Positions 27,634-41,940 of a DNA stretch of 64,000 nucleotides are shown here, one piece after another. The notes below the pieces were generated by a model that had not been told where the DNA came from, searched no databases, and worked only from the letters and a program-made list of their open reading frames with translations. How positions within the stretch are numbered: the first letter of the stretch is position 1; each line of letters opens with the position of its first letter. Source of the stretch: Flammeovirgaceae bacterium 311 (GTDB taxonomy: Bacteria; Bacteroidota; Bacteroidia; Cytophagales; Cyclobacteriaceae); NCBI GenBank assembly GCA_000597885.1, contig CP004371.1, positions 3,240,501 through 3,304,500 of the forward strand, written 5' to 3'. The translations under genes and the position numbers were made by a program.

Positions 27634-28875
27634 TTAGCTCTTAACAACTCTCAGGAGCATACTCTCCAGGGTCAGGCCCGGACCAAAGGCAAAGCTAATG
27701 ATAGGGCGCCCCTCAAGGCTGTTACTCTCCGCTGATGGTATATCTCCATGAAGGTTTTCACCTTGTCGTTCAGCTTTCCCATTGCCTTCCGGACTTAGGT
27801 TAGTTTCTGCTTTGCCCAGCATATAGGAAGAAGAAAAAACTTCAGGGATCTCCAGGCCAGCCTCATCAAATATCTCTTTCAGCACAAACAATACAGTGGC
27901 CGACGACATATTTCCATACTCCTGTAGTACAGCATAAGAATAGCGATTATCCTTTCTTTCCAGGCCCAGCGCTTCTTCGGTTACTTCCAGAATACGTCTG
28001 CCTCCGGGGTGAACAGCAAAGATGGGATCCTCTTTTTCTACATGCGGAATTTTTCTAAGAAGTCCCTTCAGCAGCTTCTCTACCCCGCCTTTAATAAATG
28101 CCGGTATATAGGAGGATAATCTCATCTCAAATCCGGTATCGCCAATGTGCCAGGCCATATCCTCAAGGCCATCCAAGGCCAGGTCGCAATAAAATTGCTC
28201 CAGGGCCAGCTGTATTCCGGGGCGCCTGATACCTTCTACCAGCACTGCAGCGGCACCATCGCCAAAAAGGGCATTCGCCAACAGGTTATCATCATCATGT
28301 TTCTTCTGAAAATGCAGCGTACACAGCTCTACCGATACCACCAGTACCTTGCTGCTGGCATCTGCCTGGCAAATGCTGGCTGCTAATTTCAGGCCATTGA
28401 TGGCGGCATAACACCCCATGAAATAGACACAGGTACGATTAACAGAACTTCGGAGCCCCAAAGCCTGAACCAGCGAAATATCCAGCCCCGGCGCCTGCAT
28501 GCCAGTGCAGCTTACGGTGATCAGGTGTGTTATATCTCCCAGTTCCACATCTGGCAGTTGCTCCAGGCACTTTTTTGAGGCGGCTGCTGCCAGTGCCGGC
28601 GCTTCAGTATTGTACACAGCCATTCTGTTCTGGGTAGTGGGGAATGGCTCCAGGTTTTCGGTATTGGGGAAAAAGCTGTAATAGCCATAAGGCTTTTTAT
28701 AATCCTCCAGCACAGAATAGCGTTGCCTGATGCCACTGGCCCGGTAAACAGCCTGTAATCTACGTTTGTCAGCAGGGCCTAGTGCCATGGCTTCTGCCAT
28801 AAAGCGGGCTGCATCGGCCTGTGGTATTATATGCGGAGGTGTTGCTGTACCTAATGCCGAGATGTATGCGGTCAT
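27634..28875 (-). CDS. Type III polyketide synthase (chalcone-synthase family)
   Basis: The 413-residue enzyme condenses malonyl-CoA on an acyl starter. The catalytic triad is intact: Cys155 (YFMGCYAA), His289 (FAVHPGG) and Asn322 (EYGNMSSAT). GFGPG-type closure appears as FAFGPGLTLE (396-405). Between Asn322 and that motif is an extra hydrophilic segment of about 45 residues (343-390, rich in Glu, Gly, Asn and Ser) that most family members lack. In Bacteroidetes these enzymes make alkylresorcinol/pyrone-type lipids. It is divergent from a UbiA prenyltransferase gene 45 bases away, so the two may share a regulatory region. Confidence 0.92.
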   Translation of the reverse strand: MTAYISALGTATPPHIIPQADAARFMAEAMALGPADKRRLQAVYRASGIRQRYSVLEDYKKPYGYYSFFPNTENLEPFPTTQNRMAVYNTEAPALAAAASKKCLEQLPDVELGDITHLITVSCTGMQAPGLDISLVQALGLRSSVNRTCVYFMGCYAAINGLKLAASICQADASSKVLVVSVELCTLHFQKKHDDDNLLANALFGDGAAAVLVEGIRRPGIQLALEQFYCDLALDGLEDMAWHIGDTGFEMRLSSYIPAFIKGGVEKLLKGLLRKIPHVEKEDPIFAVHPGGRRILEVTEEALGLERKDNRYSYAVLQEYGNMSSATVLFVLKEIFDEAGLEIPEVFSSSYMLGKAETNLSPEGNGKAERQGENLHGDIPSAESNSLEGRPIISFAFGPGLTLESMLLRVVKS

Positions 28876-28919
28876 ATTTTGAAAATTCCTTAACTTATGA
28901 TTTTAAAACCGGTGGGGCC

Positions 28920-29798
28920 ATGCTAAAGAAATCTACCTTGCTGCATTTGCGCATTCCCTTTTCCTTTTACCTGATGCCCGTTTATCTGTTTGCTCTTGCG
29001 GTGGCAGAAGCTGTACATATAATACCAGCAATAGGGGTATTTGTTAGCCTGCACCTGTTATTATATCCGGCAAGCAATGGCTACAACAGTTATTTTGATA
29101 AGGATGAAGAAAGTATAGGCGGGCTGGAAAAGCCACCTCCTGTTAGCCGGGAGCTTTATTTTACAGCTAATATGCTGGATCTGCTGGCCCTGATCATTGG
29201 CTGGTGGCTGGCCGGCCCTGTTTTTGCCCTTATGGCTGCCATTTACAGTGCAGTATCACGCGCATACAGCCATCCCATGATTCGCCTGAAGAAGCACCCC
29301 TTTACCAGCTGGTGGGTAGCCGGCTTTTTTCAGGGCTTTTTTACATTTGCCATGGCTTATGTTGGCATAACCGGCAGTAGTCTGGCAGAATTTTGGGAAG
29401 TGAAAACCGTACTGGCCGGCTGCCTTACTACACTGCTGCTCTGGGGTTCTTACCCCATGACACAAATTTACCAGCACCACGAAGATGCCCGCCGAGGCGA
29501 CCATACCCTAAGCCTGATGCTGGGCGTTAAAGGCACTTTCTTTTTTACGGCAGCGGCTTTTACAATTGCCAACATTGCCTTCTGGATTTATTTCCTGGAG
29601 TTTCACACCTTCTGGCGGGGAGTGGCCTTTCAGCTGGTACTACTGCCGGTGTTTATTTATTTTTTCCACTGGCTGCTGCTTGCTTACCGCAACGAAAATG
29701 CCGTGAGTTTTAAAAAAGCGATGTTTTTGAATACTCTTTCGGCGGCTTGTCTAAATATCTTTTTTGCGAGTATGCTTATTTGGCCTGACCGTTTTTAA
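28920..29798 (+). CDS. UbiA-family prenyltransferase
   Basis: The 292-residue protein has about nine hydrophobic helices and both Asp-rich motifs of the family: NSYFDKDEE (first motif, near 59-67) and EDARRGDHTLS (second motif). Such enzymes attach isoprenoids to aromatic rings. Start ATG 28920 is chosen because earlier in-frame starts at 28821 or 28866 lie inside the divergent polyketide synthase gene. A UbiA gene next to a type III PKS suggests prenylation of its product. Its last 48 bases overlap the 3' end of the convergent kinase gene. Confidence 0.9.
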   Translation: MLKKSTLLHLRIPFSFYLMPVYLFALAVAEAVHIIPAIGVFVSLHLLLYPASNGYNSYFDKDEESIGGLEKPPPVSRELYFTANMLDLLALIIGWWLAGPVFALMAAIYSAVSRAYSHPMIRLKKHPFTSWWVAGFFQGFFTFAMAYVGITGSSLAEFWEVKTVLAGCLTTLLLWGSYPMTQIYQHHEDARRGDHTLSLMLGVKGTFFFTAAAFTIANIAFWIYFLEFHTFWRGVAFQLVLLPVFIYFFHWLLLAYRNENAVSFKKAMFLNTLSAACLNIFFASMLIWPDRF

Positions 29799-31406: not shown

Positions 31407-31538
31407 GCTACGGTGGCAATGAAAAAATAGCTGTTAGAGAGCAAGTCAATGAAGATATCAATAAATATTACATTAAAATCAACATAATATTAAAAATATT
31501 CATCATTAGAACCGGAGCAAAAAGGAATTGTTTAAACA

Positions 31539-31572
31539 CAGAAGCCTATGCTTTTACTGGCATAGGCTTCTG
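31539..31572. terminator. Hairpin between the DUF4097 module and the kinase gene
   Basis: A perfect 12-bp stem CAGAAGCCTATG/CATAGGCTTCTG encloses a ten-base loop. It sits after the last DUF4097 stop on the minus strand and upstream of the kinase start. The flanking T-run is weak (TGTTTAAAC), so it may be a terminator or a stabilising hairpin. Confidence 0.5.
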
Positions 31573-31600
31573 CTTGTTAAAATAAAGAATGCTGATCCTG

Positions 31601-32296
31601 CTACTCTTTGCGCAGGTATATATTGCTGCTGATGGTCTCTAGACGAACAGGCGTTCCACCCTTTCCCAGCATGCCTTTCATTTCATAGCCAACAATGGGT
31701 ATCTCATCTTTTTTATTGAGAATCTGCATTTCCAGATCGGTATAAAGCTCTCCTGTAACAGATTTTAGCGATAGCTCTGCCTGCTGTGCTGCCGGCAGGC
31801 TTACATCAATAAAGCCGCTGATGCTCTTCAGATCGAGGCTTCCCTTTAAGTTTGTAGCTATTACATCTCCGCTGATGGTTTCAAGCTTGAGCGCGGCCTC
31901 CTGGGGCAGCCAAACCTCAAAGGTGATTTCCATACAAATGATTCGCTGCTTGTTATCGGAGTTATAATTCCAGATTGCCTGGCTGCCGTTACAATCATCG
32001 GGAGAGGAACCTGTTACTTTCTCCTCCCTGAAAAGAGAGGTGATCTGCAGCCCGTTACCCTGATCGGCAGAGGTTAATTGAAAAGCATCGTTGTGCCGGC
32101 CACCGTTTATTTGTACCACCGCCCGTACCTCAACTTCCGGCTTATCCCAGCCCTTTAGTTGAATAGTTCTGGCATGGTCAAATTTTAGGATAAGTGATTT
32201 GTTAGCAGGCAGTGGCCAACGCTCGTTTATTACCTTTTGTGCCTGCAGGCACAGGGGCATCAGCGCCAGCAGCAGCATGATAAGTTTCTTCTTCAT
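31601..32296 (-). CDS. Secreted DUF4097 beta-repeat protein (module B, fourth gene)
   Basis: The 231-residue protein has a signal peptide (MKKKLIMLLLALMPLCLQAQ) and an extended series of short beta-strand repeats of the type LKLETISGDVIATNLKG, DLKSISGFIDVSLP and LSLKSVTGELYTDLE. This is DUF4097, a putative adhesin forming a right-handed beta structure. The last residues, ISSNIYLRKE, match the ends of the other three copies. The gene is 4 bases downstream of its paralogue at 32301 and closes the sigma-HEAT-DUF4097-DUF4097 module. Probable location is periplasm or surface. Confidence 0.85.
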   Translation of the reverse strand: MKKKLIMLLLALMPLCLQAQKVINERWPLPANKSLILKFDHARTIQLKGWDKPEVEVRAVVQINGGRHNDAFQLTSADQGNGLQITSLFREEKVTGSSPDDCNGSQAIWNYNSDNKQRIICMEITFEVWLPQEAALKLETISGDVIATNLKGSLDLKSISGFIDVSLPAAQQAELSLKSVTGELYTDLEMQILNKKDEIPIVGYEMKGMLGKGGTPVRLETISSNIYLRKE

Positions 32297-32300
32297 GGCG

Positions 32301-33074
32301 TTAGCGTTTACGCAGGTAAATATTACTACTGGTGCTTCTGATGGTTAAGGCTGCGCCTCCCCCATTCAGGGTGGCTCTTATGGTGCTGTTGCCGCCGCCC
32401 ACATGCTGCATATTCTCCTCCTGTCCCTTTCTGTTCTGCATCTTCAGGTCCAGATCGGTAAATATTTCGCCCACTACCGAGCTTAGCACCAGGTCTGCCC
32501 TGGCAGCTGCTGGCATGCTAACATCAACCTCGCTTGCAACACTGCTGATCATACTGGGGCCATTCTGGCTGTACTCACTAAATGTTATATTAATATCGCC
32601 GCTGGTGCTGTTGGCTATTACCGGACCCGAAACATCTGTAAGCCGTACCTGGGCATCGAGCGATTTTACCTCCAGCTCAGCCCGCATCCCCTTTACAGTT
32701 ACATCTCCGCCACCCCAGTTCATATCTTCTATGCTCAGGCGGGCGTTTTCAGGTACTCTGATCACATACGTTCCGGGATGTTGCGTAGCCTCGCGAACCA
32801 GCAGGGCACCTTCTTTCGCTTCTACAGCCAGGCCTATGCCTGTATTATCTACAGAGGTATTATAGAGAGAGCGTAAACCTTTGGCACGTTCTGGTGGTGC
32901 CTGGTAATCAGAAGCCTGTATCACTATTTCGCTGCCACTGTAGCCTTCAATGCGAATGTCGGCCTTATGGTACTGTATTTTCACCTGCTGATTTGCGGCT
33001 ACTTTCTGTTTGAACTCCTGGGCCAGCCCCGGCAGGGCCGCGGAAAGCAGGAGTAGTAGAATCTTATATTTCAT
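32301..33074 (-). CDS. Secreted DUF4097 beta-repeat protein (module B, third gene)
   Basis: The 257-residue protein has a signal peptide (MKYKILLLLLSAALPGLAQ) and DUF4097 repeats (ITFSEYSQNGP, VDVSMPAAARADLVLSSVVGEIFTDLDLK). The mature chain is rich in Val, Ser, Gly and Asn with alternating hydrophobic residues. It ends in RSTSSNIYLRKR. It lies 62 bases downstream of the HEAT-repeat membrane protein gene and 4 bases before the next DUF4097 gene, so the set is co-transcribed. The ligand is unknown. Confidence 0.87.
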   Translation of the reverse strand: MKYKILLLLLSAALPGLAQEFKQKVAANQQVKIQYHKADIRIEGYSGSEIVIQASDYQAPPERAKGLRSLYNTSVDNTGIGLAVEAKEGALLVREATQHPGTYVIRVPENARLSIEDMNWGGGDVTVKGMRAELEVKSLDAQVRLTDVSGPVIANSTSGDINITFSEYSQNGPSMISSVASEVDVSMPAAARADLVLSSVVGEIFTDLDLKMQNRKGQEENMQHVGGGNSTIRATLNGGGAALTIRSTSSNIYLRKR

Positions 33075-33136
33075 GTAATGGTCCGTTTTAATTTGAAGAA
33101 ATTGATTGTATATGTGAAAGGGATCGATCCAAAATT

Positions 33137-33913
33137 CTATAGCAGTATGGAGATGCTTTTTTGTAGCTGCTGCCGTACTACCTGTTGTAGATCAGCCTGG
33201 CGCAGCATATCCTGCATTTGAGGTACTGCCTCCTTCTCCTGCATGGCAGTAAGCCCCTGGATGAGCATAATCTGCACGTTAGGGTCTTTTTGTATACCCA
33301 GCGAGTGAATGAGTGCCTGACGCACCTGCGGGTGCTCCCGGTAATGCATCAGGGCTTCCACAGCGGCCATGCGTACATTTACATTATCATCAAAGTGCAT
33401 GGTTTCTATGAGTGCCAGCAGCAGTTCGGCATCGGCCCGGGGGGCTTCTGAAGCCACACTCACTGCCTGCAGCCGCTGGCTGGTAGTGGCTCCGTTTTGC
33501 AGCATTTCCTTCAGAGAGCTTAGCTCCTGCCGCATGGCAGTAAGCTCGGTAGCTGTTTCTGCAGCAAGGGGCGCATCGGGCTGGCTGCCGGTAAATTTAC
33601 CTGCCGCAAAACCAAGCACCAGCAGGCTAACGGCTGCTGCTATCTGCCACACCGCCAGCCAGTAGCTATGCGTTTTTTGCAGGGCAGGTCTATCTGCGTC
33701 CTGAGGTAATATGGCTAATATTTCCTGATCACTAATAGGCGCTTTAATGGATTGCTCCTGCTGTTGCCACCCCAGCAGCTTAGCCTCCAGTACTAAATCC
33801 TGTGGCAGAGTTGCCTCCTGCAGTGCTTCTTTCAATGCTTTTTCTTCGGCAATAGTAGTTTCGCCCTCGTAGTAGCGGCTAAGCAATTCGCGTACACTAT
33901 CCCAGTTTTTCAT
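33137..33913 (-). CDS. Single-TM HEAT-repeat protein, putative anti-sigma factor (module B)
   Basis: The 258-residue protein has a short helical N-terminus (LLSRYYEGETTIAEEKAL) of the type seen in anti-sigma factors, one membrane helix (about 85-107, LAVWQIAAAVSLLVLGFAAG), then a helical C-terminal half with HEAT-like repeats (NVNVRMAAVEALMHY, DPNVQIMLIQGL). It ends in QLQKSISILL. It overlaps the sigma gene by 17 bases. An N-inside topology with an extracytoplasmic HEAT domain would be typical for a membrane anti-sigma sensor. The anti-sigma role is inference from context. Confidence 0.75.
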   Translation of the reverse strand: MKNWDSVRELLSRYYEGETTIAEEKALKEALQEATLPQDLVLEAKLLGWQQQEQSIKAPISDQEILAILPQDADRPALQKTHSYWLAVWQIAAAVSLLVLGFAAGKFTGSQPDAPLAAETATELTAMRQELSSLKEMLQNGATTSQRLQAVSVASEAPRADAELLLALIETMHFDDNVNVRMAAVEALMHYREHPQVRQALIHSLGIQKDPNVQIMLIQGLTAMQEKEAVPQMQDMLRQADLQQVVRQQLQKSISILL

Positions 33914-34427
33914 AGCTGCTTACTTTTATAAATTGTTCTCTCAATGTTTTTCTGGCTCTGGAGAGGGCTACCCGTATGGCATTGATCTGCATACCGGTAA
34001 CCTCTTCTATTTCTTCGTAGGACAGTTCCTCTACCTCGCGCAACCGTAAGAGCCATTGTTGCTGCTCGGGCAGGGTCTGCATCAGCCGCATCAGCACATC
34101 GTTGTGGTTGGCCGCTTCTGTTTGCTGGTGCGGGCTGGCTGCCCCACTCTCAGAATACTCCAGCCCCTCCAGGCCCTGTCTGTTTTTATAGGCTTTTGAC
34201 TTGAGCCGGTCGAGGCAAAGATTGCGAACGGTACGAATAGCAAAAGCCTCCACGTTATGGCACAGCAAAAGCTTTTGCCGGTAGAGCCACAGGCGCAGCA
34301 TGCCCTCCTGCAGTACATCTTCGGCTTCGGCGCTGTCTTTCAGCATCCAGTAAGCCACTCTGTAGAGCCGGTCTTTGGCGGGTAATACTTTGCTGTGGAA
34401 ATTCTCTTGCTCCATATCTGCTAACAT
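33897..34427 (-). CDS. ECF-type sigma-70 factor (module B)
   Basis: The 176-residue protein has region 2 (RLYRVAYWMLKDSAEAEDVLQEGMLRLW, about 20-47) and region 4 (LPEQQQWLLRLREVEELSYEEIEEVTGMQINAIRVALSRARKTL) with a helix-turn-helix. There is no C-terminal extension, so it is a plain ECF factor. The start may be Met1 or the internal Met5 (34415). It overlaps the HEAT-TM gene by 17 bases, the usual layout of sigma and anti-sigma pairs. It lies just downstream of the terminator that closes module A, so it should have its own promoter. Confidence 0.9.
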   Translation of the reverse strand: MLADMEQENFHSKVLPAKDRLYRVAYWMLKDSAEAEDVLQEGMLRLWLYRQKLLLCHNVEAFAIRTVRNLCLDRLKSKAYKNRQGLEGLEYSESGAASPHQQTEAANHNDVLMRLMQTLPEQQQWLLRLREVEELSYEEIEEVTGMQINAIRVALSRARKTLREQFIKVSSYEKLG

Positions 34428-34452
34428 GACGAGCGAGTGGCCCGGGCATTAC

Positions 34453-34481
34453 AAAAAAAAGCGAAGGAATTTTCCTTCGCT
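34453..34481 (-). terminator. Intrinsic terminator separating the two sigma/HEAT/DUF4097 modules
   Basis: A perfect 10-bp stem AGCGAAGGAA/TTCCTTCGCT with a two-base loop is followed on the minus strand by eight T residues. It is the strongest terminator in the window and shows the modules are separate transcription units. Confidence 0.85.
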
Positions 34482-34503
34482 CTAAAAATAGGCCAATGCC
34501 TGC

Positions 34504-35316
34504 TTAATTCTTCCTGATGTAGATGGCTCCGTTAAGGCTTTTTACATAAATCTCCGGGCCACCTCCATTCACCTCTCCCTGTACCCAGTTATCGATCTTT
34601 ACCCGGTAAGTGCCTCCGGTATTGGTAGTTTCTGCACGGGCAGCTTCCTGCTTCATCTTCATATCGAAATTGGTGTATACATCGCCAAATTGCGATTTAG
34701 CCTTTACATTAAACCTGGCAGCAGCAGGTAGCTTTATTTCTATTTGCCCGTTTACATTGGTGAAAGACATGGGCGCATTGGGTGGGCTATCAGCAAAAAA
34801 CGCCTCAATTTCTCCATTAACTGTATTTACCACTGCTGCTCCGGATATGTTATGCAGCAGCACCGAACCATTTACATTGCTGATGTCCAGCTCGCCCTGT
34901 ACATCTTTCACTTCAATAAGGCCATCGTTAACGGTGCGCAGGTGCAGGCTAAAATTACGGGGCACTAAAATGGTAAGGTCTGCCCTTTTCGTCCAGCTGT
35001 TTACCTTTACATCCACTTCGTTGCGCTCTTCTCTTATCTCGAGCCCCATTTGATTATCAGAAACACGGCGCATGCCATTTTCCATTTCCGGCTTATCGTT
35101 TCTGCGGTTGCTCTCAGAGGTATAGCGCACTACTACTTCTTTGCCATTATAGCCCTCAACACTAATCCCGCCATGCAGCGACTGCACCCTAAGTCTGCCT
35201 GCTTTACCAGGATCTGTAAGCGGTACGGCTATCTGATCGGAACCTTGCTGAGCAGCTGCCGGCAGGTAGAGGAGGAGTAAAGCCAGCAGTACATTGCATA
35301 TAATACGCTTTTTCAT
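34504..35316 (-). CDS. Secreted DUF4097 beta-repeat protein (module A, fourth gene)
   Basis: The 270-residue protein has a signal peptide (MKKRIICNVLLALLLLYLPAAAQ) and DUF4097 repeats such as ISVEGYNGKEVVVRY, LHLRTVNDGLIEVKDVQG, ELDISNVNGSVLLHNISG and FTNVNGQIEIKLP. The 'VNG' motif recurs about every 17-20 residues, as expected for one turn of a beta solenoid. The C-terminus is KSLNGAIYIRKN. It lies 2 bases downstream of the third gene and is followed by the strong terminator at 34453. Confidence 0.87.
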   Translation of the reverse strand: MKKRIICNVLLALLLLYLPAAAQQGSDQIAVPLTDPGKAGRLRVQSLHGGISVEGYNGKEVVVRYTSESNRRNDKPEMENGMRRVSDNQMGLEIREERNEVDVKVNSWTKRADLTILVPRNFSLHLRTVNDGLIEVKDVQGELDISNVNGSVLLHNISGAAVVNTVNGEIEAFFADSPPNAPMSFTNVNGQIEIKLPAAARFNVKAKSQFGDVYTNFDMKMKQEAARAETTNTGGTYRVKIDNWVQGEVNGGGPEIYVKSLNGAIYIRKN

Positions 35317-35318
35317 TT

Positions 35319-36167
35319 TTAATTATCTCCTTTCTTGAGGAACATATCTCCGTTTACGGTTGTGACCTGAATTTTAGGACCGCCCTGACCAACCTGTAGT
35401 GCACTTTTACCGCCTACTTTGTAGTAAGTACCGCCGCCATTCCTTTTTTCTTCTTTCAGGGGCGATGTAGTTACATCAAAATCAGTATAAAAATCGCCTG
35501 AAACAGAGGTATATTGAATATTAGCTGCCAGCTGTGGCGGGTAGGTAAGCCGAATTGCACCATTTACAGTTGTGAATTTAGTATCGGTGCTGGGTACGGT
35601 TTTGCTTTGTATTTCCACATCGCCGTTTACGGTAGTGGCTTTTACGTTGCCGCTCATGTTGGTGAGCCTAACGGCGCCGTTCACATTGGCAGCTTCTGCA
35701 TCGCTTCGCAGGTCCTGTATGGTTAAATCTCCGGCGTTAATGGTAGATGCCTTCACCACGGCGGCATCGGGCACCTGCAGTTCAATATCAAACTTCACCA
35801 TCCCGTCTTTGGAGTCGTTGTTTACACTATAGCTCCATTCGCCACGGCTGTTTTGTTTTACGGTTACACCAGGCCCATCGGCATATATCAGAACGGTGTT
35901 TCCTTCCTGGCGGAACACAAGATTCCATTCCTGCTCCAGGCGTTCGGCATTGCGGCGGGCTTCTACTGTTTTGCGGGCCTGCATATCAACAGTTGTGCTA
36001 CTATGACCTTTTACTGCCACCTTACCATTCAGGTTCATTACCTTTATGGTGTACTGATTGCTGTTTTGGGGCAGTGTTAGTGATTCTTTGATGGTACCAG
36101 CGCCCTGAGCAAAGGCAGATGCCATGCCCATTGCCAGCAGGAAAAAAGTGAATAAGATATTTTTCAT
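35319..36167 (-). CDS. Secreted DUF4097 beta-repeat protein (module A, third gene)
   Basis: The 282-residue protein has a signal peptide (MKNILFTFFLLAMGMASAFAQG) and DUF4097 repeats with recurring VNG/ING turns (KVMNLNGKVAVKG, ASTINAGDLTIQDL, AANVNGAVRLTNMSG, ATTVNGDVEIQSK). Its C-terminus reads TTVNGDMFLKKGDN. It lies 4 bases downstream of the HEAT-TM gene. It and the 34504 gene are clearly paralogous, and both match the module B pair in layout. Confidence 0.87.
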   Translation of the reverse strand: MKNILFTFFLLAMGMASAFAQGAGTIKESLTLPQNSNQYTIKVMNLNGKVAVKGHSSTTVDMQARKTVEARRNAERLEQEWNLVFRQEGNTVLIYADGPGVTVKQNSRGEWSYSVNNDSKDGMVKFDIELQVPDAAVVKASTINAGDLTIQDLRSDAEAANVNGAVRLTNMSGNVKATTVNGDVEIQSKTVPSTDTKFTTVNGAIRLTYPPQLAANIQYTSVSGDFYTDFDVTTSPLKEEKRNGGGTYYKVGGKSALQVGQGGPKIQVTTVNGDMFLKKGDN

Positions 36168-36171
36168 GATG

Positions 36172-36981
36172 TTAAAGTAAAATTTGAATGCTTCGATTTA
36201 TTTGTTGTTCTACAGTACTGTCAAGTTCTTTTTCTGCCAGCAGCTTTTGCATGGGGGCAACGGCACTTTTTTCCTGCAGGGCGGCCACTTCTTCGGCCAG
36301 CGCAATAAGTACCAGCGGCGACTCCTGATGCTCAAATGAGCGTACTAGCCCCTCGCGCACCAGCGGATGCCCGGCATGTGCATGCAGTGCCTCTATGGCG
36401 GCCACGCGGACGTTAATGCTGGGGTCACTGTTCAAGGTATTAAGCAGGGCCTTGATTACCTGCTGATCGGCCTGTGGCAGCTCCTGGCTAAGGTTTACCG
36501 CTTTTAACCGTTCTGTGGCAGAGCTTTGCTCCAGCTGACTAAGCAGGGCTACCTGCTGCATTTCCAGTAACTGGTGCTGGAGCTGGCCAATCTGCTGCTC
36601 GTATACCTGTACCGGCCGCAGCCAGTAACCTACACCAATGCCTAAGATCAGCAGCAGGGCACCTGCAAGCACACTGCCTGCCTGTACATTTCCCGACCAA
36701 AAGAACCGTCCCAGGCGCTGCTGCACCCGCTCAAAAAAGCGGGGAGTTTTCTCTTCGGCTTCTGCAGCCGCCAGCATGGTGTAGAAGTTATTGCGCAGTT
36801 GCGGACCTGGTTCCGGCCGGGGCAGGTGCTCCATTTGCAGCAGCATATTACTGTACTCCCTGAGCTCCTGTTCCTGCAGAATGCCTTTTTCAAGCAGCTC
36901 CTTTAGTTCCTGCTCCTGCGCCTTGCTTAGCTGCCCCTCCAGATAATCCATCACCAGGGGTATGTATTTATCGTCAATCAT
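36172..36981 (-). CDS. Single-TM HEAT-repeat protein, putative anti-sigma factor (module A)
   Basis: The 269-residue protein begins MIDDKYIPLVMDYLEGQLSKAQEQELKELL, a helical N-terminus of the anti-sigma kind, has one membrane helix (about 98-118, AGSVLAGALLLILGIGVGYWL), a helical linker and HEAT-like repeats (INVRVAAIEALHAH, PLVLIALAEEVAAL). It ends QINRSIQILL, echoing QLQKSISILL in module B. It overlaps the sigma gene by 8 bases. The N-terminal part may sequester the sigma factor at the membrane while the C-terminal domain senses a signal; this role is inferred from gene order. Confidence 0.75.
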   Translation of the reverse strand: MIDDKYIPLVMDYLEGQLSKAQEQELKELLEKGILQEQELREYSNMLLQMEHLPRPEPGPQLRNNFYTMLAAAEAEEKTPRFFERVQQRLGRFFWSGNVQAGSVLAGALLLILGIGVGYWLRPVQVYEQQIGQLQHQLLEMQQVALLSQLEQSSATERLKAVNLSQELPQADQQVIKALLNTLNSDPSINVRVAAIEALHAHAGHPLVREGLVRSFEHQESPLVLIALAEEVAALQEKSAVAPMQKLLAEKELDSTVEQQINRSIQILL

Positions 36982-37540
36982 GTTTCACCTCCTCGTCTAG
37001 CTGCGCGTAAATGGTTTTAAGCTCCTGTATGGCCCTGAAAACCTTTACCCGCACATTGTTTTCCGTACTATTTGTCATGTCTGCAATTTCTTTATACTTA
37101 AGCCCCTGAAACTTGCTAAGCTCCAGCAGCTCCTGCTTTTCCAGGCTCATTTTTTTCAGGGCCTTTTGCAGCAGGCTTACCTCCTCTTCCCGGTCTGTCA
37201 CAGGTCCATAGCTGCTTTCTGCGGTATCTTCAATCTTAGCTAAATCATCGCGTTGTCCCTCCCGCTTGTGCTTGCGCCAGTGATCTGCCAGAATGTTGCG
37301 AGCCATATGGAACATCCAGGCAGTAAATGCACCCTTACCCATAAAGGTATGCTTGTATTTGAGGATGCGGTAAAACACAGTCTGGGTAAGGTCTTCGCTG
37401 AGGTCGCTATCTTGCGTAAGCCTGTAAAAAAAGGCATACAGCGGTTTATGATGCCGCTCAAACAGCAAGCCCAGACAGGATGTTCTGCCCTCTTTTACCT
37501 GCAACATCAGGTGGTTATCGCTAAGGGTATTGTGTTCCAT
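36974..37540 (-). CDS. ECF-type sigma-70 factor (module A)
   Basis: From ATG 37540 the protein has 188 residues; an upstream in-frame GTG (37567) would add nine. Region 2 (LYAFFYRLTQDSDLSEDLTQTVFYRILKYKHTFMG) and region 4 (MSLEKQELLELSKFQGLKYKEIADMTNSTENNVRVKVFRAIQEL) are clear. It has the ordinary ECF length and overlaps the HEAT-TM gene by 8 bases. It is the first gene of module A and divergent from the quinone oxidoreductase gene 254 bases away. Confidence 0.92.
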   Translation of the reverse strand: MEHNTLSDNHLMLQVKEGRTSCLGLLFERHHKPLYAFFYRLTQDSDLSEDLTQTVFYRILKYKHTFMGKGAFTAWMFHMARNILADHWRKHKREGQRDDLAKIEDTAESSYGPVTDREEEVSLLQKALKKMSLEKQELLELSKFQGLKYKEIADMTNSTENNVRVKVFRAIQELKTIYAQLDEEVKHD

Positions 37541-37794
37541 TTGGTTTCGCGTTAGGGTAAACTCCACCTTTGTCTAAACATTACAGCCCCTAGCTATATT
37601 TTTTTTATAAAAGCAGCAATTCTATCTTGACGGACGGCCCTCAACAGGTATAACTGGCTGGCCTGTAACCAAAATCACAGCGCATAGTAGCGCACGATGC
37701 TGGCAATCAGAAAAATGGCGGCAGCACTTTTCAGCGGCAAAAATCTTCCGTCCTCTTTGTTCAATATAAAAATCAGAATTACATGAATCACAGT

Positions 37795-38820: not shown

Positions 38821-39414
38821 ATGAAAATGAATATGATCATTGCAGGCATTTTTTGCCTAAGTATTGCTGCTGCCTGCGACACAGACCGCAGAACAGCCCA
38901 GAATGAGGGCTACCAGGATACCACCGCCACCGACCAGGAGACAGTTGCTATTGGTGAGGGCGGCCGCATAGATAGTGATACCAGAGAATTTGTAAATGAA
39001 GCAGCCAGTGGTGGCATGATGGAAGTAGAACTGGGCAAACTTGCGCAGGAGAAAGCCACCAACCAGCAGGTAAAGGATTTTGGAGGTATGATGGTAAAAG
39101 ACCATGGCCAGGCCAACGACCGGCTGAAAAGCATTGCCCAGAATAAAAACATTCAGCTCCCTACTGCCATGAACGAAGAACACCAGGAGCACGTAAACAG
39201 GCTCCGCAACCTTTCGGGGCAGGAGTTCGACAGAGAATATGTAAACCTGATGGTAGAAGACCATGAGGAAGACATCAGCAAGTTTGAAAGTATGCAGGGG
39301 GATGTACAGGACCAGGAGCTAAAACAGTGGATTGACAGCACTCTGCCTACCCTGCGTACGCACAAGGAGCGTATTGATCAGATCAAGAATACGATAGATA
39401 ACAAACGCAGCTAA
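38821..39414 (+). CDS. DUF4142 lipoprotein
   Basis: The 197-residue protein has a lipobox AAAC (Cys19) followed by DTDRR, then a DUF4142 helical domain: DTREFVNEAASGGMMEVELGKLAQEKA, GGMMVKDHGQAND and VNLMVEDHEEDISKFE. The family is a four-helix bundle resembling ferritin-like and DUF305 folds. It is found in many envelope stress or metal contexts; no exact function is known. Its stop overlaps the convergent FAD oxidoreductase stop by 4 bases, and its terminator seems to lie inside that gene at 39538-39572. Confidence 0.9.
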   Translation: MKMNMIIAGIFCLSIAAACDTDRRTAQNEGYQDTTATDQETVAIGEGGRIDSDTREFVNEAASGGMMEVELGKLAQEKATNQQVKDFGGMMVKDHGQANDRLKSIAQNKNIQLPTAMNEEHQEHVNRLRNLSGQEFDREYVNLMVEDHEEDISKFESMQGDVQDQELKQWIDSTLPTLRTHKERIDQIKNTIDNKRS

Positions 39415-40526
39415 AAGACTTTACCATGTGTTTGCCTTACCAGCAAACGACCTAAAGGCTTTACGCGCAGCAGCTGCAGGGCAGCCACAGAAAACAAAGG
39501 ATGCCCAAAAAGTAGCTGGAACTGGCGGCCTATCCATAAACGCCTGGCAAACTGATTTTGCCAGGCGTTTTTATATGCCTGTTCCAGCTGCTCCTGATGT
39601 CCTGCAGCTGCAGGATTATAATGCGCCACAATCAATTCTGATAGTATCTTGCCGGCATGAATTGCCATAGCCATGCCGTTTCCACAAAGGGGCGTTATCA
39701 GGCCAGAAGCATCGCCAGCCATCAGCACACCACCTTCCACAGCTTGTTTGGCACTAAAGTTTACCTCATTAATAACCAGCGGCTTTTGGTAAAGAAATTC
39801 TGCTTCCTTGAAAATATTTTTCAGATGAGGATTTTGCTGAAGATCTTTTTCCTCCATTGCTTCTATACTTCCCCAGTGGCGCAGACGGTTACGGCTGCCC
39901 AGGTAGCACAGGTTCCATGTGTTATTTTCAACTTTACTAACACCACAGTAGCCTCCGGGGAAATTATGCAGAGCTACCTCATGATGCGGCAGTTCTCCCC
40001 TGATATGGTATTTTACACCAATAAAATCGGAGCGCTGTTCCATAAAGGGTCGGCTAAGCTGTTTATCCAGGCGGCTTCGTTTGCCCCATGCACCAACTAC
40101 CAGCCTGCTGTTTACTTTTTCGCCTCCCTTCAGGCTTACAGAAAAACTGTTATCCTGCCTGGAAACATCCAGTACATGAGCCCCCTGCTGTATTTCGGCT
40201 CCAGCCTCAAGGGCTTTCTTGCTAAGAAATTCATCGAGGCAGTACCGGCTAATGCCAAAGCCGCCTAAGCTTAGAGGCAATGTAACGGCTGCCCCACCCA
40301 CACTGCTTAGCCTGAAGCTAGTAATTTGTGCAGGCCCAAACGCTTCCGGAAAGGCTCCAATAGATTGCAGGAAAGGAGTTACTTCATGGGAGACATACTC
40401 ACCACAGACTTTATGAAAGGGGTAATGGTGCTTTTCCAGCAGTAAAACACTCAGGCCAGCTTTGGCTAACTGCAGGGAAGTAATCAACCCTGCTAATCCG
40501 CCACCAATAATAATTACGTCTTTCAC
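39411..40526 (-). CDS. FAD-dependent oxidoreductase, geranylgeranyl-reductase-like
   Basis: The 371-residue flavoprotein has the N-terminal FAD fold (VIIIGGGLAGLITSLQLAKAG), a PFHKVCGEYVSHEV segment after it, and the second FAD motif GDASGLITPLCGNGMAMA near 275-290. This wording is that of geranylgeranyl-reductase/FixC-like enzymes, which reduce isoprenoid double bonds or hydroxylate aromatics. In other Bacteroidetes genomes a relative sits in the type III PKS/UbiA cluster; here it is 10 kb away. Substrate unknown. Confidence 0.87.
   Translation of the reverse strand: MKDVIIIGGGLAGLITSLQLAKAGLSVLLLEKHHYPFHKVCGEYVSHEVTPFLQSIGAFPEAFGPAQITSFRLSSVGGAAVTLPLSLGGFGISRYCLDEFLSKKALEAGAEIQQGAHVLDVSRQDNSFSVSLKGGEKVNSRLVVGAWGKRSRLDKQLSRPFMEQRSDFIGVKYHIRGELPHHEVALHNFPGGYCGVSKVENNTWNLCYLGSRNRLRHWGSIEAMEEKDLQQNPHLKNIFKEAEFLYQKPLVINEVNFSAKQAVEGGVLMAGDASGLITPLCGNGMAMAIHAGKILSELIVAHYNPAAAGHQEQLEQAYKNAWQNQFARRLWIGRQFQLLFGHPLFSVAALQLLRVKPLGRLLVRQTHGKVF
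39538..39572 (+). terminator. Intrinsic terminator for DUF4142 embedded in the convergent oxidoreductase gene
   Basis: Arms AAACGCCTGGCAAA (39538-39551) and TTTGCCAGGCGTTT (39557-39570) are perfectly complementary over 14 bases, loop CTGAT, and end in five T residues on the plus strand. It lies within the coding sequence for the C-terminal part of the FAD oxidoreductase. Confidence 0.7.
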
Positions 40527-40671: not shown

Positions 40672-41940
40672 TCAGATTGCATCACGCAGCCTGAAATGGA
40701 TCCGGATTTTTTTATCGTTCCTTAGCACTACTACCCTCATTTTTTTACCCTCTCTTTTACGCAAATGTTCTGCTATCAGCGGAAGTCCTGCACCCTGGGC
40801 ACGCATTCCATTCACTTTGAATATAATATCTCCCCGCAGGATTCCTGCATTGGCTGCAGGGCTGTCTTTGCGAACCTCCGTTACTACCAGGGTATCCAGT
40901 GCACGGCCATAGGCCGAAATTGTAAGGCCGGTTTTATTGAAAATAAACGGCCGCTTAAAATTGTCACCCTTTGCAAAGTACATGGCCTTATGCGGGTAAT
41001 CCAGAATAACAGTAAACCTGCTTAGCACATCGCCCCCCAGGGTACCATCACGTTCCTGATCATGACTGGACAACGAATAACTCTCCGAATCCGGAAAGGA
41101 AGACAGTACATGTTCAAATGTATAATCAGCAATGTTTAATTCCGGAAGCCTTCCGATATGGCCTTCTATATTACCAAGCAGACCACGACCAAGGTTCCCG
41201 TAGAGGGTTTTCAGGGGTAAGGGAACCTCTGCTCTGTCGGAATGCAGTAAAAGCGCATGGCTGGCGCCGGTATCCACCAACAGCTTCAGCGTGTGCTTTT
41301 CGCCGTTTCGGTCTGTTACATCTGCATGAATGAATGGCTTTGTATTTTCAAGCGTGAGATCATACTTTTTGTAGGAGCGCGGTGCCTTGAACTGCTCCGG
41401 CTCATAGAGGGTAATTATATTTTGTGCATAGTCTATCTTCACCACAAATCTCGCAAAGAGTTCATAGCCGATAATGCCATGCACCGGCACACCTAGCTGG
41501 CTGCCTAGTTCAAGATAATCTTCTTCCAGCACCAGTATTGGCAGATTGGTTACCTGTACGTTCGGGAGCATCATCCTGACATTAGAGGCTACATACGCCT
41601 GCACATCATTACCATAACCTGCTCCCCGGAGGCTTAGGCTACGATCATAGTTGATGTTTAGAATATCGCTGTAAACACGATCGGTCAGGATAGGAGTTCG
41701 TACACCGGTATCCAGCAAAAACTCCAGGGGAATCATATTATCCAGCAGTACCGGTATGAGTATAAGATTATTGATGTTCCGGAAGGGGATCTGAGCACTT
41801 GGCTTATTATCAAGGAAGTTTATGGTCTGAACCTGCGCCTCAGCCCTTTGAACAACAGCAGACAGCAAGTGCAGGCAGGCTAACATTGTTAGTGTCAGCA
41901 TGCACCTGATACTCTTCCATCTTATAGCAAGGTTTGCCAT
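40672..41940 (-). CDS. Secreted tandem retropepsin-like aspartic protease with PDZ domain
   Basis: The 422-residue protein starts with a signal peptide (Met1, or Met14 at 41901) ending near AEAQVQ. Two retropepsin-like active-site motifs are present: FLLDTGVRTPIL (about 73-84) and LLVDTGASHALLL (about 225-237), each with an Asp-Thr-Gly. A PDZ domain occupies the last 90 residues (VVTEVRKDSPAANAGILRGDIIFKVNG). Retropepsins normally need two DTG motifs in a dimer; here one chain supplies both. Predicted periplasmic or surface protease. It is divergent from the iron ABC transporter gene. Confidence 0.87.
   Translation of the reverse strand: MANLAIRWKSIRCMLTLTMLACLHLLSAVVQRAEAQVQTINFLDNKPSAQIPFRNINNLILIPVLLDNMIPLEFLLDTGVRTPILTDRVYSDILNINYDRSLSLRGAGYGNDVQAYVASNVRMMLPNVQVTNLPILVLEEDYLELGSQLGVPVHGIIGYELFARFVVKIDYAQNIITLYEPEQFKAPRSYKKYDLTLENTKPFIHADVTDRNGEKHTLKLLVDTGASHALLLHSDRAEVPLPLKTLYGNLGRGLLGNIEGHIGRLPELNIADYTFEHVLSSFPDSESYSLSSHDQERDGTLGGDVLSRFTVILDYPHKAMYFAKGDNFKRPFIFNKTGLTISAYGRALDTLVVTEVRKDSPAANAGILRGDIIFKVNGMRAQGAGLPLIAEHLRKREGKKMRVVVLRNDKKIRIHFRLRDAI

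Follow-up and report, generated by a model that had tools for sequence, protein, structure and literature searches.

What is sensed by a pair of adjacent four-gene modules that each join a sigma factor to a membrane-anchored HEAT-repeat protein and to two exported proteins of the DUF4097 (Toastrack) family? The question is raised by the minus strand of a 64,000-nucleotide (nt) stretch of the Flammeovirgaceae bacterium 311 genome (contig CP004371.1, positions 3,240,501 to 3,304,500; hereafter, the window), where two such modules, A and B, lie in tandem. Our tentative answer, to which we give slightly less than an even chance, is that these are two paralogous, autoregulated envelope switches of the extracytoplasmic function (ECF) type, in each of which the outer HEAT domain would read the exported Toastrack pair. 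Sequence comparisons support well the sigma/anti-sigma identities, the presence of one promoter per module before the sigma gene, and the co-inheritance of the genes; autoregulation in the living cell, an inside N-terminus, HEAT–Toastrack contact, the sign of the feedback, and the envelope signal are what we infer beyond these. The constituents are the following (window coordinates):

37557..37585, minus strand: predicted promoter A, ECF type (TGTAATG, spacer, GTTTAC), found by pattern match at genome positions 3278057-3278085; the two-box form of clade A
36974..37540, minus strand: sigma A, ECF sigma factor; Sigma70_r2 and r4_2 over the Pfam cut-off
36172..36981, minus strand: predicted anti-sigma A, HEAT-repeat protein with a transmembrane helix; HEAT_2 41.5 bits, anti-sigma model NF052375 at E 3.7e-6 and under its cut-off; anti-sigma domain at residues 1-80, membrane helix at about 97-121 (hydropathy), HEAT repeats at about 150-268
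35319..36167, minus strand: Toastrack A1; DUF4097 34.8 bits, signal-like N-terminus (predicted signal peptide), model with a predicted local distance difference test score (pLDDT) of 90.3
34504..35316, minus strand: Toastrack A2; DUF4097 42.4 bits, signal-like N-terminus (predicted signal peptide)
34458..34483, minus strand: intrinsic terminator of module A, an 11-pair stem plus T run (terminator scan and fold)
34428..34453, minus strand: predicted promoter B, ECF type (TGTAATG, spacer, TCGTC), like those of near relatives; the sole match of its pattern in the 6.67-Mb genome
33897..34427, minus strand: sigma B, ECF sigma factor of the PG0214/GFO_1088 family; Sigma70_r2 and r4_2 over the cut-off
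33137..33913, minus strand: predicted anti-sigma B, HEAT-repeat protein with a transmembrane helix; HEAT_2 52.6 bits, zf-HC2 at E 0.045 and under its cut-off; N-terminal anti-sigma domain, membrane helix at about residues 83-104 (hydropathy), HEAT repeats at 167-253
32301..33074, minus strand: Toastrack B1; DUF4097 34.9 bits, signal-like N-terminus (predicted signal peptide)
31601..32296, minus strand: Toastrack-like B2; DUF4097 20.9 bits against a cut-off of 22.9, signal-like N-terminus (predicted signal peptide)
31538..31573, minus strand: probable terminator of module B, a 14-pair hairpin with a weak T tract (fold; missing from the terminator scan)

All eight genes lie where a preliminary description of this DNA had placed them, as judged from the list of open reading frames (ORFs) with their translations, and the sigma/HEAT gene overlaps it gave, 8 bases in module A and 17 bases in module B, are exact. 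Its domain assignments stand for Sigma70 and HEAT_2 in both modules and for DUF4097 in three of the four proteins, B2 falling just under the Pfam cut-off; the separate terminators it assigned to the modules are clear for A (stem and T run) and probable for B (weak T tract), terminator A being the strongest of 10 sites in a scan for which 8.9 would be expected by chance. The start of sigma A was taken as the ATG at 37540, its open frame reaching back to a GTG at 37567. For sigma B, the ATG at 34415 (giving 172 residues) is the likelier start, since the ATG at 34427 directly abuts the -10 element of the proposed promoter. When this genome, a single contig, is searched with the B-type HEAT protein, the two copies in the modules are the only matches.

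The HEAT-repeat protein had been thought not to be a standard anti-sigma factor, with its HEAT repeats in the N-terminal segment. Both points change on closer comparison: the N-terminal half belongs to a common anti-sigma domain family, the repeats lie C-terminal to the membrane helix, and only this outer domain is unusual. The first 80 residues align with domains bearing the zinc motif HxxxCxxC, and a profile made from the two window domains and 26 homologues that have the zinc motif, hence leaning towards zinc anti-sigma factors, matches the solved structures 3hug (E 5.5e-7; presumably RslA), RsiW (1.4e-6), DdvA and ChrR, and weakly RsrA (0.01). Matches to zf-HC2 occur in 19 of 62 homologues and to the NCBI anti-sigma model in 33 of 62; the window proteins alone stay under the curated cut-offs of such models, their assignment to the family being made via these homologues and the profile. 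HxxxCxxC is kept in 37 of 149 homologues and is absent from both window copies in the alignment. Because it is present in both clades described below (29 A, 8 B), the zinc site is probably ancestral and was lost in the window copies, which would make them zinc-free members of a zinc anti-sigma domain family. Given the match of this N-terminal domain family to the RsiW and ChrR structures, and the retention of the motif in these 37 homologues, we identify the HEAT protein, from its sequence relationships, as an anti-sigma factor.

In the predicted structure of anti-sigma A (pLDDT 89.9), helices occupy residues 4-78; another helix follows at 101-121 and a long one at 125-150, after which HEAT helices run to residue 268. 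With VIA-align, which covered residues 130-269 only, residues 139-269 superpose on designed HEAT repeats (Z 14.7, root-mean-square deviation 2.6, 124 aligned). No Foldseek match reached E 0.001, those listed being to HEAT, armadillo or designed helical repeats, and no anti-sigma structure appears in the structural match lists of the full model. Both HEAT proteins have a single hydrophobic segment, the membrane helix carrying GxxxG in 131 of 149 homologues, which may serve helix packing or dimerization. Because charge bias puts the N-terminus inside (32 of 47 cases), the prediction is that the HEAT domain stands outside the inner membrane. The envelope location proposed earlier gains support. 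HEAT is also the best conserved part: its mean identity is 0.50 in clade A and 0.38 in clade B, where the anti-sigma domain reaches 0.28 and 0.22, respectively.

Toastrack A1, the one Toastrack modelled, matches the solved structures 4qrk (best, E 6.2e-11) and 4opw. By a simple rule, signal-like N-termini are found in 139 of 147 first and 123 of 131 second DUF4097 proteins of the modules.

The four-gene order recurs widely. With the HEAT protein as the entry point, and in sets of loci that share genomes (named, relative and phylum), a sigma gene lies directly upstream in 81/81, 47/47 and 29/30 loci with enough room around the HEAT gene (too little room excluded 6 of 87 modules in the named set and 1 of 31 in the phylum set), the exception being a phylum locus, L100, without a recognised sigma factor. 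The two genes overlap or lie within 20 nt of each other in 75/81, 45/47 and 28/30 cases. At least one DUF4097 gene follows in all 158 loci with room, and exactly two in 77 of 81 named, 36 of 47 relative, and 27 of 30 phylum loci. The co-occurrence in relatives on which the preliminary description had staked its interpretation is thus seen, and its regulated sigma/anti-sigma pair gains support from this order and from the anti-sigma domain homology. Anti-sigma A has homologues of 89% and 71% identity in two Cesiribacter genomes, so that among named relatives the genome stands near Cesiribacter; the B-type HEAT protein has matches in 30 of 59 relatives, and a HEAT-protein profile matches in 152 of 395 phylum genomes, many through the N-terminus only. 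A scan of GTDB genomes with an A-type query, in which clade B is under-sampled, confirmed 436 relatives; the best 80 loci kept include Cytophagales, Flavobacteriaceae, Hymenobacter, Spirosoma and Balneolaceae.

Divergent modules were also seen in another family of the phylum (L257:44-3686, minus strand; L272:2-3635, plus strand), with a sigma factor, a HEAT anti-sigma of ~320 residues and two DUF4097 proteins of ~372-382 residues. A contig named as a Desulfobacteraceae metagenome-assembled genome (L183) carries sigma, HEAT anti-sigma and DUF4097 genes, and is either mis-binned or the product of transfer.

Trees of 149 distinct modules divide into two clades, A and B, with support of 1.0 for HEAT, 0.988 for sigma, 0.997 for the first DUF4097 and 0.939 for the second. 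Clade B membership is concordant between HEAT and sigma trees for all 28 shared B modules, and between HEAT and second-DUF4097 trees for all 20; between HEAT and first-DUF4097 trees it is concordant for all 27, but the B side of the latter also takes in six A-clade loci (L085, L100, L119, L132, L180 and L183) that possess just one DUF4097 gene apiece. For modules with a pair of DUF4097 genes, a combined tree resolves A1, A2, B1 and B2 as one clade each, with A apart from B. Since the order is so widely recurrent and nearly the same split appears in four gene trees, it is not a product of chance. Both module types stand at one locus in nine cases, i.e., the window, Cesiribacter (L036/L037), Nafulsella (L038), L039 (divergent), Hymenobacter (L155/L156/L172) and L040. 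These distributions fit an old tandem duplication followed by dispersal in many lineages.

Upstream of the sigma genes, most clade A members carry TGTAACCTTT, a spacer of ~14 nt, and GTTTCC; clade B pairs this first box with GGTAAC, in place of which the window's own group has TGTAATG with TCGTC. Of 147 module sigma genes, 111 have TGTAAC in the 140 nt before them, as against 37 of 705 other genes, and 81 of 147 are preceded by the two-box A form, as against 7 of 705; this form is found in none of the regions before the inner module genes (0 of 149, 0 of 147 and 0 of 131). The T run of terminator A marks the start of promoter B, and the modules therefore look separately transcribed, though tightly packed. 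The different second boxes fit separate specificities of sigma A and sigma B, and, together with the old A/B split, support the earlier proposal of two separate systems. At sequence level, autoregulation of each module by its own sigma factor is well supported, and would be expected in the living cell. A divergent TGTAACC upstream of a dehydrogenase gene at 37783 was taken as chance, being unseen by eye in the matching L036 region.

The main argument for what the HEAT domain reads comes from a sister operon. Sigma B scores 193 bits against the NF058625 model (PG0214/GFO_1088), whose cut-off is 130, and sigma A scores 93 bits, under that cut-off. PG0214-type sigma factors over the cut-off occur in 14 of 80 phylum genomes. 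In the 13 such loci other than the window's, neither a HEAT domain in the partner anti-sigma (0/13) nor a DUF4097 gene within the locus (0/13) was found; ten partner proteins match an anti-sigma profile, and in 9 of the 9 loci tested by Pfam the next exported gene encodes DUF4252. DUF4252 is likewise next at L230, beside a sigma factor under the PG0214 cut-off, and at the PG0214-type locus L229 the next gene looks different by eye. All 29 non-window loci of the PG0214-family search lack a HEAT match, and L236 alone has a DUF4097-like gene, on the upstream side. The PG0214-type operon (sigma factor, putative anti-sigma PG_0215, DUF4252) thus resembles module B in having an anti-sigma gene that overlaps the sigma gene and encodes a single-helix protein whose N-terminal domain is related, followed by genes for exported proteins, and differs in that module B has HEAT and DUF4097. 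PG_0214 to PG_0218 of Porphyromonas gingivalis are reported to rise together (PMC10101095), and sigma, hypothetical and DUF4252 genes are grouped in transcriptomes of P. gingivalis (PMC10101095, PMC10434189) and of Prevotella bivia (PMC11410844). One protein, L226:2720-3484 (plus strand), is a DUF4252–DUF2807 fusion, and as DUF2807 is counted as a Toastrack in PMC11237479, the exported families of the sister operons are thereby linked. Within the PG0214-type family, HEAT and DUF4097 would jointly replace a HEAT-less anti-sigma and DUF4252; because HEAT goes with DUF4097, and the HEAT-less anti-sigma with DUF4252, we suggest that HEAT reads the Toastrack.

Covariation lends this link weak support. 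In 190 of 200 resamplings, HEAT covaries more with both DUF4097 proteins (the weaker DUF4097 link being compared) than with sigma or with its own anti-sigma domain; the strongest partner of the anti-sigma domain is sigma, again in 190 of 200. Together with the joint swap, this indirectly favours the earlier suggestion that the DUF4097 proteins report to HEAT. Altogether, HEAT–Toastrack contact stands at about even chances.

We propose that the anti-sigma domain of the HEAT protein would hold sigma at the inner membrane, with the HEAT repeats outside it as a sensor arm, and that the two exported Toastracks would be both the core product of sigma and its gauge. Free Toastrack bound to HEAT would keep the anti-sigma closed. 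A damaged or altered envelope would draw the Toastracks off, leaving HEAT empty and sigma freed, whether by proteolysis or by a conformational change, and the freed sigma would raise all four proteins until Toastrack refilled HEAT. The inhibitory sign is borrowed by analogy from LiaX, which, according to PMC11601895, inhibits LiaFSR via its C-terminal domain; Toastracks would act in the same sense here. In its broader form, to which we give rather less than an even chance, the proposal is of a widespread homeostat in which the HEAT anti-sigma reads, through direct contact beyond the inner membrane, the free Toastrack that remains there, its PG0214-type sister following the same logic with DUF4252.

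Several results weigh against this account. The charge bias underlying the topology is reversed in 6 of 47 cases and tied in 9. Every count of gene order is conditional on the HEAT protein having been found first; conversely, when the phylum is searched for DUF4097, a HEAT anti-sigma is recognised within the retrieved stretch at no more than 9 of the 30 best loci, so DUF4097 has other uses too. Sigma covaries most with the first DUF4097 protein (0.41) and less with the anti-sigma domain (0.27), and covariation is therefore no simple tracker of contacts. Promoter matches are also no more frequent than might be expected: the A pattern has 5 matches in its own genome against 4 for the reversed control, one of the 5 being the module's own promoter and the other four lying inside ORFs (three) or 179 nt before a called ORF (one, L189). 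Order-wide, in 98 genomes, a form of the pattern that needs TGTAACC, and that the TGTAATG promoters of the window therefore could not match, has 21 matches against 24 for the control, so match number alone shows nothing. For the B pattern, the single match in the genome, promoter B itself, compares with 10 for the reversed control.

By place, the 21 order-wide matches fall at 8 module sigma genes, 2 DUF4097 genes, 2 genes for a secreted repeat protein, and 9 sites inside ORFs or with no gene; at L207, the match lies inside the called 5' end of the sigma ORF. At L196 and L205, 3-kb loci that contain neither a sigma nor a HEAT gene, the A pattern stands directly before a DUF4097 gene, the L196 protein matching a DUF4097 profile at E 3.3e-55 and Pfam DUF4097 at only 13.2 bits, under the cut-off. 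From this placement, Toastracks look like the core output of the regulon. The secreted repeat proteins (L210:1595-2764, plus strand; L213:286-1446, minus strand) are similar to one another, ~387 residues long with many 'IHGV' repeats, and come from two bacterial families. Their genes lie 54-65 nt behind A-type promoter matches, and the protein, which has no Pfam match over the cut-off and was not found in the window's own genome, is a possible further regulon member.

The same switch could operate with the Toastracks as mere effectors that coat or brace the envelope, the HEAT domain binding some other signal such as a misfolded protein, peptide, lipid or protease; we regard this as a real possibility, at appreciably less than an even chance. 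Toastracks lie in the operon, and the promoter precedes Toastrack genes elsewhere too, as it would for any effector, while the sister operons manage with another exported family and a HEAT-less anti-sigma. A plain effector, however, need not be gained or lost together with HEAT in the PG0214-type family, nor need HEAT covary with both DUF4097 proteins. That joint swap and covariation are compatible with either sign of feedback, and the Toastracks could instead be the inducing ligand, i.e., stray or unassembled Toastrack on HEAT would free sigma and so signal failed surface assembly. We consider this improbable: the one analogue that has been studied, LiaX, inhibits by way of its C-terminal domain (PMC11601895), and a self-made inducer would tend to lock the switch on.

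Very improbable, in our estimate, is that the HEAT protein is a scaffold whose gene merely overlaps that of sigma, another protein controlling the latter. The zinc motif missing from both window copies, and their sub-threshold scores against anti-sigma models when taken alone, would suit such a scaffold; against it are the homology that links the domain family both to anti-sigma factors of solved structure and to anti-sigma models, the adjacency of sigma in 157 of the 158 loci with room, with overlaps or short gaps as frequent as reported above, and the standing of sigma as the strongest covariation partner of the anti-sigma domain.

The switch proposed here, with HEAT reading Toastrack, shares with known ECF sigma/membrane anti-sigma systems its sigma factors with regions 2 and 4 only (Pfam), an adjacent gene for an anti-sigma domain and, at sequence level, an ECF-type promoter before sigma. 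Its anti-sigmas resemble the zinc proteins RsiW, RslA and ChrR in the N-terminal domain, in the overlap with the sigma gene and, in the homologues that keep it, in the zinc motif; the window copies differ in lacking that motif and in having a HEAT-repeat domain as the outer part. As in the Lia/phage-shock systems (LiaG, LiaX, LiaF), a Toastrack domain would be tied to envelope-stress transcription, with an ECF sigma factor where Lia has a two-component system; matches of the module DUF4097 proteins to LiaX and LiaG models are weak and fall far short of the cut-offs. Neither PspA, PspC nor LiaFSR was found by Pfam among the eight module and seven neighbour proteins, the rest of the genome not having been searched. 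PMC11237479 notes settings in which Toastrack is linked in an operon to a sigma factor and predicts an intracellular Toastrack, in contrast to the signal-like N-termini of the module proteins; HEAT repeats go unmentioned in its main text. In openly licensed PubMed Central full texts, we found no description of HEAT repeats as an extracytoplasmic anti-sigma arm, nor of DUF4097 with a sigma factor and a HEAT repeat. The four-gene set, recurrent in many related bacteria, thus looks like a little-described form of envelope monitoring. It makes HEAT repeats a candidate extracytoplasmic arm for anti-sigma factors, and would tie DUF4097/Toastrack and DUF4252, families without settled function in the libraries used, to one switch logic. 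HEAT–Toastrack contact is a testable prediction and, if true, would make the regulon's own exported product the quantity measured by the switch; the promoter form of the modules should help define that regulon.

About 3 kb upstream of module A, an aspartyl protease with a PDZ domain is encoded at 40672-41940 (minus strand) and might conceivably bear on anti-sigma release. The modules are otherwise flanked by genes for a type III polyketide synthase-like protein (27634-28875, minus strand), a UbiA prenyltransferase-like protein (28821-29798, plus strand) and a FAD oxidoreductase (39411-40526, minus strand), which are perhaps parts of one pathway.

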